8,837 bases of DNA from Bacillota bacterium (GTDB lineage: Bacteria; Bacillota; Bacilli; Alicyclobacillales; Alicyclobacillaceae). Positions 307 to 8,009 of the stretch are shown here, piece after piece. Location: the NCBI GenBank assembly GCA_021820805.1, contig JAKADF010000109.1, positions 1 to 8,837 on the forward strand. Direction: 5' to 3'. Below the pieces are notes generated by a model, which had not been told where the DNA came from, searched no databases, and saw only the letters and a list, made by a program, of their open reading frames with translations. The number at the start of each line of letters is the position of its first letter. The stretch's first letter is position 1. Both the position numbers and the translations under genes were made by a program.

Positions 307-939
307 CTAGTAGCTTATTACAATAGTCTTACGAATGGTAGATTTATCAGCAGCAATTCTCAACATAAAGTCAGCAACATCTGCCCGAGAAATTTTAGGC
401 ATCATTCCAAGGCGAATATGCTCCCCTGTTCGATATCTGCCAAATCCTAGTTTGGGGCCATTTGTGAGTAACACCGGATGAATACAAGTAAAATCAAGGT
501 CACCTTGCAGAAGGTACCTTTCTCCTTTAGCCTTATCATCGAAAGTAGGTTTCAAAATTGTTCTCGCCGCAATTTTTAAAAAGGGAGACGAAGCTTTCTT
601 CTGACTGTCACCGACACCAAATGCTGACATAACAACCAATCGCTTGACTCCATGCCTATGCATCCCATCGGCTATATTTTTTACGCCTACCGAAAATACG
701 TCGCCTTTAAATGGCGTCCTTGTTCCAAGAGCGGAGACAACCACGTCATATCCAGCTACCGCGTTTCTGACGCCTTGTGTGTCAGTCACATCTCCAACGA
801 TGGAAGAAAGGTTCGGGTGGTTAATAGTAAGCTTCATCGGATTACGCACAAAAGCCGTGATTTCATGACCAAGTTCAAGGCCTTGTTTCACAATCTCCTG
901 CCCAGTAAGTCCAGTTGCGCCAAAGACTAAAAACCTCAT
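307..939 (-). CDS. NAD(P)H-binding reductase, BLVRB/flavin-reductase-like
   Basis: This is a predicted 210-residue cytosolic oxidoreductase of the atypical short-chain dehydrogenase group (NAD(P)H-binding, PF13460-like). The N-terminal beta strand runs into the glycine motif GATGLTG (residues 7-13). An Arg after the second strand (VRNP, residues 31-34) suggests NADPH preference. IVGDV, SALGTR, MSAF and the late ISRADVADFMLR segment resemble mammalian biliverdin-IX-beta/flavin reductase, and there is no classical YxxxK pair. The natural substrate cannot be told from sequence. The ATG at 939 is preferred to a TTG 39 nt upstream: it gives MRFLVFGATG, the usual start for the fold, and AGAAGGG lies 10 nt before it. 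It starts 43 nt after the HesB-like stop, so the two are probably co-transcribed. Confidence 0.88.
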   Translation of the reverse strand: MRFLVFGATGLTGQEIVKQGLELGHEITAFVRNPMKLTINHPNLSSIVGDVTDTQGVRNAVAGYDVVVSALGTRTPFKGDVFSVGVKNIADGMHRHGVKRLVVMSAFGVGDSQKKASSPFLKIAARTILKPTFDDKAKGERYLLQGDLDFTCIHPVLLTNGPKLGFGRYRTGEHIRLGMMPKISRADVADFMLRIAADKSTIRKTIVISY

Positions 940-982
940 AGTCCCGAATCCCTTCTTTCTATCAGATTCCTGCAGCAACCGA

Positions 983-1285
983 TTAATGATGGTGGCCGTG
1001 GCCGCCCTTACTTGGATTTACTACAACCCACTTGTCATCAGCGGGATCGTAATCAATTTCAACACCATCCAAAAAATCAACACCTTTTTCCAACAAAACC
1101 TGGGCGCCAGATTCTGTAACAACAAGTTCGTCACTTTCTTTTTGCTCATCAAGACCCAATCCATAATGCGCATGATCTCCGTGTGCATGTTCCACAAACA
1201 CACGAACTTTCAATGTCTTTTCTTCCTGCTGCTGAATAATATAATTCAATCTGTCTGCTGCACTCTTACTCACGCTGCACTTCAT
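983..1285 (-). CDS. HesB/IscA-fold protein with His-rich sites in place of cluster cysteines
   Basis: This 100-residue protein matches the HesB/IscA (A-type Fe-S carrier) fold along its length: an N-terminal helix with SKSAADRLN, then a YGLGLDEQKESDELVV core (41-56) and FLDGVEIDYD (71-80). Canonical IscA has a Cys in the first loop (SGCSG) and a C-terminal CxC. Here the first loop reads EHAHGDHAHYG (32-42), with Gly36 at the Cys position and His at 33, 35, 38 and 40. The C-terminus is GGHGHHH, so HGH replaces CGC. The only cysteine is Cys3. Some HesB-like relatives carry Cys or Sec in this loop (GFGUGG type). The His pattern suggests metal binding other than classical Fe-S transfer, which is inference. 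The ATG at 1285 has GAGGGAG 12 nt upstream. It leads an operon with the reductase. Confidence 0.85.
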   Translation of the reverse strand: MKCSVSKSAADRLNYIIQQQEEKTLKVRVFVEHAHGDHAHYGLGLDEQKESDELVVTESGAQVLLEKGVDFLDGVEIDYDPADDKWVVVNPSKGGHGHHH

Positions 1286-2734: not shown

Positions 2735-4096
2735 TTACACATGATTCACAATTGTGGTTTTGTTGGTGAATCCTTTTTGCGATTTAGTTTGGGTCGATTG
2801 TATTCCAGATTGGGATCCGCTCTTAGAGGTACCCGAGGGGCCTGCTGTACCCGTAGCGCCCGATGTACCCGCAGTGCCGCTCACGCGGCTTGTCGCAGAT
2901 CCTTTTGTTGCAGATCCTGTTGCAGAGTTTGTCGTAAGTTTCTTTGTTGAACTCTTCGCAAAGCTCTGTGCTCCGCTCTTTGTGGTACCACTGGTATGCA
3001 CCATGCTGCTGATTCCCGTTTTTTGTGTACCTAGTTTTGTACTTCCTGGCTTATGGCCATTCGTTTCGGCAACAATGTTTACTTCCGTTACATGGTGGTG
3101 GTGGTGATGAAGCCCGCCGCCGCCTAGGTTCTCCTGTATATTTGCGAAACGGATAATCAACTTCAACGCCGTAGCCGGGCTAATTCCTGGCTTACCGATG
3201 TCGATGCGTGGGATTTCAAAATGGTCTGTATTTGCTGCAACGTATCCATTTGTCGTTGTATAAATGTACCCGTACCCTGCTCGTTCTGCTAGATAGGTAG
3301 ATTCTGTTGTACCCCAGCCAAAAGGCCACGCAAACTGCGTAACTGCATCACCAGTATTCACTTCAAGTTCTTTACGTGCACGGCTAAAATCATTGTAAAC
3401 GCGCGTATCATAGTGACTGAGTGTTTCGCGTTTTCCATTTGCGACGATGCGAGTGTCAAAAACCGGCTCCATCTCTCCATTTGAGGAACGCACCTGGTAA
3501 TGCGAATCGTAAGTATGGCTTTCAATCACCATTCCATCATGAGCCATAGTTTTAATTTGGTTCCAACTTAAATATTCCGTTTCTTGTTTATCCGCTGTTC
3601 CGACAATCTCGAAAAACGTCCCTTGCAAATGCAAAGACAGCAAGACAGGTAAAGCATAAGTGTACATGTCACGGTACCCATCATCAAAAGTCAATAAAAC
3701 GGAGTTTGGCGGAATCGTGCCTTCGTGATCCAAAAAGTTAATAAATTCGTGGTTTGTAAGGACGTGAAACCGTGCCTTTATTGCAACCAAGTCCTCGGTA
3801 AACTGCAACGGCGTAATTACATATGGAGAATATACAGTTGGTGCAATATCATGAAACGTAACAATGACAACTCTATTTCGATAGTACGTTTTTGCCGGAA
3901 TGCTGGATATCTCCGATGTAATATTCGATAGTTGCATGTTGCTAGACTGTTGGCGCGACACTGTCACAGTATGAATCGTCTCATTCGAAGTCATAGGGGA
4001 TGTGGCCGATAAATGATGAGCGTACAAATCTGCAGCAGCAGCGAGCATTCCAATGCACATGACTCCAGCCAGAAACTTCTTAGCTTTTTTCTTCAT
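2735..4096 (-). CDS. Secreted polysaccharide deacetylase with His6 segment and low-complexity tail
   Basis: This 453-residue protein has an N-terminal signal or anchor (KKKAKKFLAGVMCIGMLAAAA, residues 2-22) and a NodB-type deacetylase domain (about 75-315). It should remove N-acetyl (or O-acetyl) groups from an extracellular glycan using a divalent metal. Motifs: TFHD (80-83), TFDDGY (136-141; Asp138/139), SHTYDSH (193-199; His194 and His199), and AWPFGWG (256-262). SHTYDSH has one residue more between the histidines than the usual HxxxH and recalls the IcaB/YxkH-like branch. After the domain come GGGG-L-HHHHHH (about 325-335) and a Ser/Thr/Gly/Ala-rich tail to the end, including GXY triplets (407-424). 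The ATG at 4096 has GAGAGGG 11 nt upstream; a GTG nine codons earlier (4123) overlaps that site. Confidence 0.87.
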   Translation of the reverse strand: MKKKAKKFLAGVMCIGMLAAAADLYAHHLSATSPMTSNETIHTVTVSRQQSSNMQLSNITSEISSIPAKTYYRNRVVIVTFHDIAPTVYSPYVITPLQFTEDLVAIKARFHVLTNHEFINFLDHEGTIPPNSVLLTFDDGYRDMYTYALPVLLSLHLQGTFFEIVGTADKQETEYLSWNQIKTMAHDGMVIESHTYDSHYQVRSSNGEMEPVFDTRIVANGKRETLSHYDTRVYNDFSRARKELEVNTGDAVTQFAWPFGWGTTESTYLAERAGYGYIYTTTNGYVAANTDHFEIPRIDIGKPGISPATALKLIIRFANIQENLGGGGLHHHHHHVTEVNIVAETNGHKPGSTKLGTQKTGISSMVHTSGTTKSGAQSFAKSSTKKLTTNSATGSATKGSATSRVSGTAGTSGATGTAGPSGTSKSGSQSGIQSTQTKSQKGFTNKTTIVNHV

Positions 4097-4380
4097 ATGG
4101 CCGACAGCCCTCTCTACAAGCACTCATTAACTAAATTTCACATCGCTGCTACTAAACAATTTGATAATCGTGGTAGAAAGCCTTAAACAAGAAACCAATC
4201 TGTTTACAACAATTCTTAATCCAAATAAATTATATTTTATATGTGCTTTACAACATTGCAATCCCTGGCCTAAATGAAATTTTTCTGAAAATAAGAATCC
4301 GTTTTACACCTCTCGCTTTCCGCCATCAAGGCTCTATCCCTACCCCTGCCCGCACACCGTTGCCCTATGCTGCGCCTTAT
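4097..4380 (-). other. Gap between the two deacetylase genes, possible promoter
   Basis: The AT-rich centre contains a perfect minus-strand TATAAT (plus 4229-4234) in a run of A/T. The nearest -35-like TTGTAA is only 13 nt away and TTGCAA is 21 nt away, so a promoter is suspected, not shown. A second weak pair, TTGTTT and TATCAA with an 18-nt spacer, lies nearer the gene. Just after the upstream gene's stop (4320-4380), GC-rich sequence shares GGGCA, GGGG and TAGGGAT in the same order, on the minus strand, with the 53-bp repeat. I see no hairpin with a T-run, so transcription from upstream may continue. Confidence 0.3.
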
Positions 4381-5383: not shown

Positions 5384-7435
5384 CTAGATTCCCGCATAGG
5401 ACGCCGTACTTAAAGCTGCTGAACTTTGCAGCGGCTTTTTTCTTGAAAGGGAATGAACATTCGTTTCCCAAAGCTCAAAGCAAAGCAATATCCACAACAG
5501 GCGAGCTGCCCGTCTGCGGCCTTTTTCCGGCGTTTTGAAAAGCCCTTCTATGAAACTTGGGTTATATATTGCTCTCGTCTCCGCATTTGGATTTAGCAAT
5601 GTGGAAAGAACGAAATCTCTCCATTCGTTAAACATCCAAGCGGACAAAGGGACTGGAAAACCTGCCTTTTTTCGATTAAGAACTTCTTTCGGCACGATAT
5701 CCGCAAGCGCACTGCGAACAATCCATTTCCCTGTCTTGCCGTGTATTTTTTCTCGTCTGCCCATTTTAAGTGCAAATTCAACAATCTGTCTGTCCAGAAA
5801 TGGAACGCGCAGTTCGATTGAATGCGCCATTGAAATCTTGTCCGATTTTGTAAGTGTATTTTCAGGTAACCACGCATTCAGATCAAAAAGTGTCATTTGA
5901 CGCAGCAAATCCTGACTCTTATGGTTTTCCATGTTTTGAATCGGCTTCAAAACCCTGTTTGCATACGCCCTTGTTTCATCCATTTTAAGCATTCGTATTG
6001 TTTCATCTGTGAGCAATTCTTTTAATTCATGCTCCTGAAATGCGCCCCCAACCCCTTGATACCAATCTGCAACGGGAGATAAGGATTTTTGTAAGACGCC
6101 AGTTCCTGGAATGCAAAGTCTCTTGTGCACATAAAGCATCAATTTCCGAACTGCTTTTGGAACTCGGTTGAGTGCGCTAAGCCAGTACACCTGACGGTAA
6201 ACCGAATAACCATTAAACAGCTCGTCCAAGCCTTCACCGCTGAAAAGCACCTTTACCCCAGATTGATGGGCCAACTTGCAGGCGAACCATAAGGGGATTG
6301 CAGTCGGATCGGCTATCGGCTCATCTAAGTCAGAAATGATACGAGGTAAAGAGGCCAGCACTTGTTTTGGCGTATAACATTCACTTATATGATTTGCTTC
6401 AAAAAATCTCGCAACAGATGATGCATTATCAATTTCGTTATACTCACATATTTCTGTCTTGTCGCGAGGTTGCGTAAAAGAGACGGTAAACGTTTCGGGA
6501 GTTTGCCCAAACAACCGATAATGCATTGCAAGCAAGGCGGATGAATCCAGGCCCCCGCTGAGTAAAATCCCAGAATTCGTATAGGATGCTTCTTGGCTTA
6601 ATACTGCATCATACAGCTTTTGTTTAAGTTGTCTCACTTTTTGCTTATATGGCGCGCGTGTTACAGAGGGTTCCCGAATCTCTGCTGCTGACCAGTAACT
6701 GCTATGAATCAAACCAAGGCCCGGCTGAATTACAACAAATTCTGCTGGCTCTAGTTTTTGAATCCCGGCAACAACCGTTTTTTCCCCAGGCACAAATCGA
6801 AATGTATGATATTCGGTAAAACCCGTTTGGTCCAACTGTGCGCTTACATCTGGTTCAGAGAGCAGAGCGCGAATTTCTGATGCGAACAGAAACCTATTCT
6901 CGGTCTCTGCGAAATACAACGGTTTTACGCCAAGCCTATCCCTTGCTGCAATAAGTTTTCCTTGCACCTTGTCCCAAAGTACAAACGCAAAAGTACCTTC
7001 CAAATAACGTATACAATTCTCTTGATATTGTTCATAAAGATGAACAATGACCTCTACATCCGATGCAGTCGAAAATGTATGTCCATTTACTTCCAAGTCA
7101 GAATGCAACTGATGGTAATTATAGATTTCTCCATTACAAATAACTGCAATTGTACGTTCTTCATTCCAAATTGGCTGTACACCCGAATCACCGCCGACAA
7201 TCGCTAGGCGAGCCATCCCAAGGGCAATTTCGTCGCCGATATAAGTTCCGACTGAGTCCGGTCCTCGATGTTCGATTGCTTCCACCATTGAATCAATATT
7301 ATCTTTCAAGTTTCCTAAGGAATTTCTAGTCATTCGTAAATCATCTTTAAAGATTTGCAATTTGTCTGCAGGTAACTGCTGTAGGGCATTACCATAAATG
7401 TTCTTCTTCAACAAAACTGCGGCAATACCGCACAT
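5384..7435 (-). CDS. asnB: Asparagine synthase (glutamine-hydrolysing), AsnB family
   Basis: This 683-residue two-domain amidotransferase has an N-terminal class II glutaminase with catalytic Cys2 (MCGIAAV), HRGPD (56-60), CNGEIYNY (100-107) and RDRLGVKPLYF (165-175). The C-terminal ATP-pyrophosphatase domain has SGGLDSS (293-299), DEPIADPTAIPLW (371-383), GEGLDELF (400-407) and LNRKKAGFPVP near the end. It uses Gln and ATP to amidate a carboxylate: aspartate, or in bacillar AsnB proteins possibly meso-DAP of peptidoglycan precursors. The deacetylase downstream makes a wall role plausible. Oddities: about 25 extra residues between MCGIAAV and HRGPD, and Leu where most relatives have Ala (GEGADE). 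Cys2 chemistry and ACGGAGA 9 nt upstream fix the start at 7435. The open frame extends 104 codons upstream, but that part has no homology I recognise. Confidence 0.92.
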   Translation of the reverse strand: MCGIAAVLLKKNIYGNALQQLPADKLQIFKDDLRMTRNSLGNLKDNIDSMVEAIEHRGPDSVGTYIGDEIALGMARLAIVGGDSGVQPIWNEERTIAVICNGEIYNYHQLHSDLEVNGHTFSTASDVEVIVHLYEQYQENCIRYLEGTFAFVLWDKVQGKLIAARDRLGVKPLYFAETENRFLFASEIRALLSEPDVSAQLDQTGFTEYHTFRFVPGEKTVVAGIQKLEPAEFVVIQPGLGLIHSSYWSAAEIREPSVTRAPYKQKVRQLKQKLYDAVLSQEASYTNSGILLSGGLDSSALLAMHYRLFGQTPETFTVSFTQPRDKTEICEYNEIDNASSVARFFEANHISECYTPKQVLASLPRIISDLDEPIADPTAIPLWFACKLAHQSGVKVLFSGEGLDELFNGYSVYRQVYWLSALNRVPKAVRKLMLYVHKRLCIPGTGVLQKSLSPVADWYQGVGGAFQEHELKELLTDETIRMLKMDETRAYANRVLKPIQNMENHKSQDLLRQMTLFDLNAWLPENTLTKSDKISMAHSIELRVPFLDRQIVEFALKMGRREKIHGKTGKWIVRSALADIVPKEVLNRKKAGFPVPLSAWMFNEWRDFVLSTLLNPNAETRAIYNPSFIEGLFKTPEKGRRRAARLLWILLCFELWETNVHSLSRKKPLQSSAALSTASYAGI
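5412..5441 (+). terminator. Terminator-like hairpin inside the 3' end of asnB
   Basis: On the plus strand AAAGCTGCTG (5412-5421) pairs over 10 bp, one of them G-U, with CAGCGGCTTT (5429-5438) around a 7-nt loop. It is followed by TTT, giving T6 at 5436-5441. It lies in the last codons of asnB (KKPLQSSAALS). In the plus direction it looks like an intrinsic terminator and would stop antisense transcripts. On the minus strand the stem has a C-A mismatch and only three T's, so it should be weak for asnB. Confidence 0.35.
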
Positions 7436-7443
7436 AATCATTA

Positions 7444-7450
7444 TCTCCGT
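7444..7450 (-). promoter_or_regulatory. Ribosome binding site fixing the asnB start
   Basis: ACGGAGA on the minus strand has GGAG ending 9 nt before ATG 7435. The in-frame ATG at 7441 would leave only 3 nt, and starts further upstream would bury Cys2. The glutaminase needs Met removed to expose Cys2, so 7435 is the functional start. Confidence 0.75.
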
Positions 7451-7479
7451 TCTTAAATGGATACGGCATATGAATTCTT

Positions 7480-7513
7480 GTGTCATCTTAATCCGACACC
7501 TAATGTAGCACAA
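7480..7513 (-). promoter_or_regulatory. Possible asnB promoter with an inverted repeat around the -10
   Basis: On the minus strand TTGTGC (7508-7513) and TAAGAT (7485-7490) are spaced by 17 nt, a weak sigma-A-like pair (3/6 and 4/6). The -10 lies between the arms of an exact inverted repeat, GTGTC (7480-7484) and GACAC (7495-7499), which could be a regulator site. Both observations are short enough to be chance. Confidence 0.3.
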
Positions 7514-7628
7514 AAATGTTAAGGAAATTTGGAGATTGGGCTTGTACAAACCAAAAGAGGATTTTTTCTTATGAGCATAATTACCAGTCATTCTCTGCAT
7601 ATTAAACATAACTTTTTGTGGAAGGAAA

Positions 7629-8009
7629 ATGATATTAAAAATGTTAAATTTACGTTTATGTGCAGGAACACTTGCATTTTTAACAGCGCTGCAATCTATA
7701 TCCCCCACCGTTGCTTTTGCAAAAGACAGGTCTCTGCAGATTTCCATTACAGATCATGGTTTTGTTCCAAATAGTGTTATGACCGTCCTCAACCAGCAGG
7801 TAAAAATACACGTAGTCAATAATGGCCGCAAAGTACACCAGTTTTCGATTCCTTACTATAGGATTTACACAGAGGACTTAAACCCAGGCCAGACGTCCGA
7901 TATTGCTTTTGCACCATGGACTGCAGGTCGGTTTGATATGACATCGGATCCGTCTGGTACAGATAACCCAGAATTCAAAGGGAATTTTAATGTAACAGAC
8001 CATAAATGA
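7629..8009 (+). CDS. Secreted cupredoxin-fold protein lacking most copper ligands
   Basis: This small protein (126 residues) has a signal peptide (about 1-31, AFA before KD) and a cupredoxin-like domain: DHGFVPNSVMTV (42-53), VKIHVVNNGRKVHQFSIP (58-75), then LNPGQTSDIAFAPWTAGRFDM (84-104) and FKGNFNV (117-122). These match the Cupredoxin_1 pattern of exported electron-transfer or copper proteins. Of the type 1 ligands only the first His (His70) remains. Where relatives have Y-C...H...M-K-G this has RFDMTSDPSG...EFKG: the Cys, second His and Met are gone. It probably does not bind copper in the classical way; structural, lipid- or metal-chaperone roles are possible. ATG 7629 follows GTGGAAGG closely; ATG 7641, also in frame, is an alternative with a 14-nt spacing. 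It is divergent from asnB; I found no convincing promoter. Confidence 0.8.
   Translation: MILKMLNLRLCAGTLAFLTALQSISPTVAFAKDRSLQISITDHGFVPNSVMTVLNQQVKIHVVNNGRKVHQFSIPYYRIYTEDLNPGQTSDIAFAPWTAGRFDMTSDPSGTDNPEFKGNFNVTDHK

Follow-up and report, generated by a model that had tools for sequence, protein, structure and literature searches.

A histidine hairpin in place of the cysteine loop in a Bacilli family with the A-type-carrier fold

A-type carriers such as IscA, SufA and ErpA (PF01521, TIGR00049) bind iron-sulfur (Fe-S) clusters or iron through three cysteines. These three conserved cysteines define the group, and passages of PMC10301553 treat it as a controversial matter whether its members donate iron, carry clusters or do both. 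Excerpts of the sources used here also describe Cys-less versions of the fold, namely DsrR, PdhI (PMC10090944) and a degenerate domain of NfuA (PMC10301553), of which YneR/PdhI of Bacillus subtilis (9a4q) binds the E1 component of pyruvate dehydrogenase via Tyr31 (excerpt of PMC10090944). On another fold, BolA-type proteins carry two conserved histidines, bind divalent metals broadly and share a cluster with a Cys-containing partner, while YrbA binds divalent metals by two histidines (excerpts of PMC7538681). Here, a gene encoding a 100-residue protein related to A-type carriers, in which histidines occupy the cysteine sites, was analysed in contig JAKADF010000109.1 of an Alicyclobacillaceae bacterium; the whole 8,837-nucleotide stretch is referred to as the window and the gene product as the His protein.

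Alignment placed the loop HAHGDHAHY of the window protein over GGGCSGFQY of ErpA HI1723 (2apn), with Gly36 on the cysteine, and equally over GGCSGF of native Bacillales carriers, bearing out the original prediction that the loop cysteine had become a glycine among His33, His35, His38 and His40. The only cysteine of the window protein is residue 3, and none of the three cluster cysteines of IscA, SufA and ErpA is present. The same prediction had the C-terminal CGC replaced by HGHHH: following a common Asn-Pro, canonical proteins do carry CGCG and the window protein HGHHH, roughly at the same site, but spacing and length differ in the alignment to native carriers, so that the exact column correspondence is ambiguous. 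The predicted structure retained the A-type-carrier fold, so that the refuting condition of a different fold came out in favour of the original reading; the hairpin turn was assigned by DSSP to G36-D37, and residues 96-100 were disordered in the model, with a predicted local distance difference test score (pLDDT) below 50. The protein scored below the curated cut-offs of PF01521 (22.2 versus 26.3), TIGR00049 (40.3 versus 58.8) and ErpA (43 versus 117), and likewise below those of IscA and SufA.

Conservation was counted in a class-level sample of 398 genomes in preference to a motif-biased search, whose six patterns included the His loop and whose loop identity (80/80 among the best 80 of 160 loci) was not used for this purpose. 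The class-sample search was not limited by motif, as canonical carriers were also returned. Matches with an expect value (E) of at most 0.001 were obtained in 225 genomes and fell into a strong group (at least 53 bits) and a weak group (at most 38 bits). The strong group comprised 117 matches in 108 genomes, nine of which held two His-type copies; 116 of the proteins were read, the 117th (G010, locus L044) being counted in another set. H35, H38, H40 and Y41 were kept in 116/116, position 33 was histidine in 103, position 36 was Gly in 112, Asp in 3 and Ser in 1, and position 37 was Asp in 101, Asn in 7, Ser in 4 and Thr in 4. Conversely, all 13 weak matches that were fetched carried the canonical GGC[ST]GF. 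Such retention of four residues by every protein read, across 108 of 398 genomes, is beyond chance, and a separate protein search yielded 75 proteins (query included), all with H..H.HY. These sequence comparisons support strong selection on the loop histidines, and the other refuting condition, homologues with unconserved His residues, likewise turned out in favour of the original reading.

In a phylum-level sample, also of 398 genomes, the strong group (at least 124 bits) consisted of 11 matches in nine genomes, all other matches scoring at most 54.3 bits, and within the genomes searched the family looks confined to Bacilli. The closest relatives of the window protein were P0002 (79% identity) and P0003 (74%), followed by Alicyclobacillus proteins, and among 109 full-length relatives the cysteine count was 0 or 1. 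A mobile-element gene was considered and rejected as far as plasmid and phage collections go: homologues at 41% identity were found on three Peribacillus plasmids and none in phage records, viral contigs lying outside this search.

The C-terminal tail was far less conserved than the loop in the 109 full-length relatives. The last nine residues contained at least one histidine in 105 and at least two in 92, and the four without any (L091-L094) had also lost H33 while retaining H35, H38 and H40; five more proteins lacked H33 and retained the tail. Since the proteins without tail histidines keep these three, the core site would be the hairpin, to which the tail and H33 look auxiliary, judging from these patterns. 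The original case for selection at both sites is well supported for the loop histidines and weaker than stated for the variable tail.

To place the family relative to ordinary carriers, PF01521 relatives were read in genomes encoding a His protein. A normal GGC[ST]GF...CGCG carrier was present in 10/10 genomes, a count based on the readable subset of 30 loci (11 canonical proteins; four loci gave no protein and several an unrelated best open reading frame), and the PF01521 search of G001 (1.6 Mb) returned no match and that of G007 one match outside the set read. In a tree of 64 proteins, 46 His proteins lay on one side of a branch with a Shimodaira-Hasegawa-like approximate likelihood ratio test (SH-aLRT) value of 95, with three PdhI-like rows apart; after removal of the loop and tail columns the branch persisted at 88, which is not conclusive. 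On sequence grounds, the His protein is an added paralogue beside the Cys-type carrier and no replacement of it.

In many Paenibacillaceae relatives, the His gene is tightly paired with a DUF1450 gene encoding five invariant cysteines, as seen in 37/37 strong subfamily members. The partner is possibly thioredoxin-like, perhaps a [2Fe-2S] ferredoxin, on a weak fold match; kinship with glutaredoxins (E 1.4e-5 in a profile search, over short stretches around the Cys motifs) was not relied on. At locus L108 (3165-4524), the genes for a nitroreductase, the His protein and DUF1450 form a three-gene unit without gaps, each either abutting or overlapping the next. The proteins L091-L094, which have no tail histidines, are second copies in some genomes, and the same genomes also have the His-DUF1450 pair.

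Taken together, we tentatively propose that the His protein is an A-type-carrier paralogue in which three Cys ligands were swapped for His, and that, as a soluble protein, it carries or donates a divalent metal in bare form, with Fe(II) as the likeliest candidate, in the handling of iron or iron-sulfur clusters. Binding of a bare divalent ion appears most likely because the carrier fold is kept, cysteine is unusable and three hairpin histidines are invariant; Fe(II) is the first choice because of the ancestry of the fold and the linked Cys protein. On this view, the metal would be held on a tight beta-hairpin, with H35/H38 and H33/H40 opposed across the strands, and the flexible His tail may assist. 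Without the cysteines a conventional Cys-ligated cluster would be impossible, so that the cargo would be metal and not a finished cluster. Where paired, DUF1450 would be a client or partner, and what is passed on would be either the ion or a cluster held jointly with the DUF1450 cysteines, for which BolA-type proteins are a precedent. The original claim that the protein is not a cluster carrier is likely for the protein alone, a shared cluster with the Cys-rich DUF1450 of relatives being possible.

Several observations weigh against this proposal. The DUF1450 pair is absent from 71 of the 108 genomes with a His protein and from the window. Furthermore, 109 upstream stretches were scanned with eight consensus patterns (CcpA serving as an unrelated pattern) against mononucleotide-shuffled controls, and no metal-regulator box was enriched, the mean mismatches being close to those of controls, although a weak signal could escape such a scan.

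Zn, Ni, Co or Cu is a possible cargo instead, and a His metal site that buffers or chaperones such a metal, with no iron-sulfur role, is conceivable though doubtful. A His-rich hairpin with a His tail is typical of Zn, Ni or Cu binding. The metallo-beta-lactamase metal motif HxHxDH occurs in the loop of 98/109 full-length members (HAHGDH in the window protein), and on this motif ribonuclease Z models match 5/98 members, and a lactonase and a Lactamase_B model one each. CbiX genes near L096 and L098 and an Nramp gene near L110 point the same way, but such neighbours were found in just three of the 24 loci listed. Moreover, Zur, CsoR and NikR-like boxes were among those not enriched, the conserved Paenibacillaceae neighbour is Cys-rich and possibly ferredoxin-like, and iron and clusters are the business of the ancestral fold.

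It is improbable, albeit with a BolA-glutaredoxin precedent in the excerpts cited above, that the His protein and DUF1450 jointly hold a [2Fe-2S] cluster with mixed His/Cys ligands. The invariant pairing in the strong subfamily, with invariant histidines on one side and five invariant cysteines on the other, fits such an arrangement, whereas the fold match of DUF1450 is weak and the pair is missing from most of the genomes and from the window, so that a shared cluster would not be the universal role unless another partner serves. A broader picture, which we regard as unlikely on present evidence, is a Bacilli branch of the fold with a His hairpin for Cys that in Paenibacillaceae combines with a dedicated ferredoxin-like DUF1450 into a two-protein module, which would hold or pass iron or a His/Cys-ligated [2Fe-2S] cluster, in parallel to BolA-glutaredoxin on an unrelated fold. 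There is little to recommend a regulatory or binding protein like DsrR or YneR/PdhI, with the histidines serving a protein interface and no metal, as three invariant histidines plus H33 and the His tail exceed usual interface conservation and the sequences lie outside the PdhI-like tree group.

The features at the locus are listed in Table 1. The likely true start of the NmrA-like gene is the ATG at 939-937, 43 nt past the focal stop, and this gene is a possible operon mate of the His gene.

Table 1. Coordinates of the His gene, its putative metal-site elements and its neighbour in the window
Feature	Position	Strand	Remarks
His-type A-type-carrier-fold gene	983..1285	-	ATG start; 100 aa plus stop
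His hairpin HAHGDHAHY, codons 33-41	1163..1189	-	Replaces Cys loop; codon positions checked
Gly36 codon	1178-1180	-	On Cys position in alignment to ErpA and native carriers
C-terminal His tail HGHHH, codons 96-100	986..1000	-	Stands for CGC
NAD(P)-binding (NmrA-like) gene	307..978	-	Downstream, same strand; PF13460 E 3.2e-44

Between the focal gene and an L,D-transpeptidase gene, a direct repeat of 53 nt recurs about five times (1538-1843; starts at 1601, 1655, 1708, 1761 and 1814), with a 16-nt core of 75-100% identity; an Rfam search of the window, repeat region included, gave no match. A PgaB-like polysaccharide deacetylase gene (2735-4123, minus strand) encodes an internal six-His run and a long Ser/Thr/Gly-rich tail, and an asparagine-synthase-like open reading frame (5384-7747, minus strand; 787 aa) probably has its true start internally, its first ~140 residues matching no family. 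Among 15 genomes compared, the asparagine synthetase of Alicyclobacillus tolerans came nearest to that of the window (57%), and the contig therefore probably stems from a relative of Alicyclobacillaceae. Elsewhere, in two loci of a divergent branch, a CbiX-type chelatase gene lies 66 nt upstream of the His gene, with a CodY gene downstream (L096), or two genes upstream (L098); at L110, the Nramp gene lies 368 nt downstream.

A natural branch on the same fold that has no usable cysteines separates the iron-donor role from the cluster-carrier role; if the His branch carries iron, the fold would support iron handling without cluster chemistry. For DUF1450, whose function is unknown, an initial hypothesis also emerges from the pairing. 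The database names 'iron-sulfur cluster assembly accessory protein', 'IscA' and 'heme biosynthesis protein HemY' are probably misleading for the members bearing them.

The His hairpin goes unmentioned in the excerpts on PdhI (PMC10090944) and NfuA (PMC10301553), and no description of the family was found in the open-licence literature, its absence not being proven thereby. DsrR (2k4z) has the IscA fold without Cys ligands, as does the His protein, but comes from sulfur oxidisers with dsr genes, a context not shared by the window gene (no Dsr protein among the eight window proteins scanned), while YneR/PdhI and the His family form distinct tree groups. The HesB-like selenoprotein and IscA_HesB_Se families have Cys or Sec in the loop; their profiles match the His family distantly (TIGR01911 in 22/98 and NF038090 in 56/98 members), which has a Gly between histidines instead. 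Metallo-beta-lactamases appear to differ from the His family in fold, and their likeness to it, an isolated HxHxDH motif with a variable D37, looks convergent; membership of that superfamily was rejected, the match being to the local motif only, while the lack of metallo-beta-lactamase or other folds in the VIA list carries no weight here. BolA/YrbA with monothiol glutaredoxin resembles the His protein with DUF1450 in pairing a small His-ligand protein with a Cys-containing thioredoxin-fold partner; however, the folds of the His-ligand proteins are unrelated, no glutaredoxin accompanies the His protein, and its partnership with DUF1450 is known from gene order alone.
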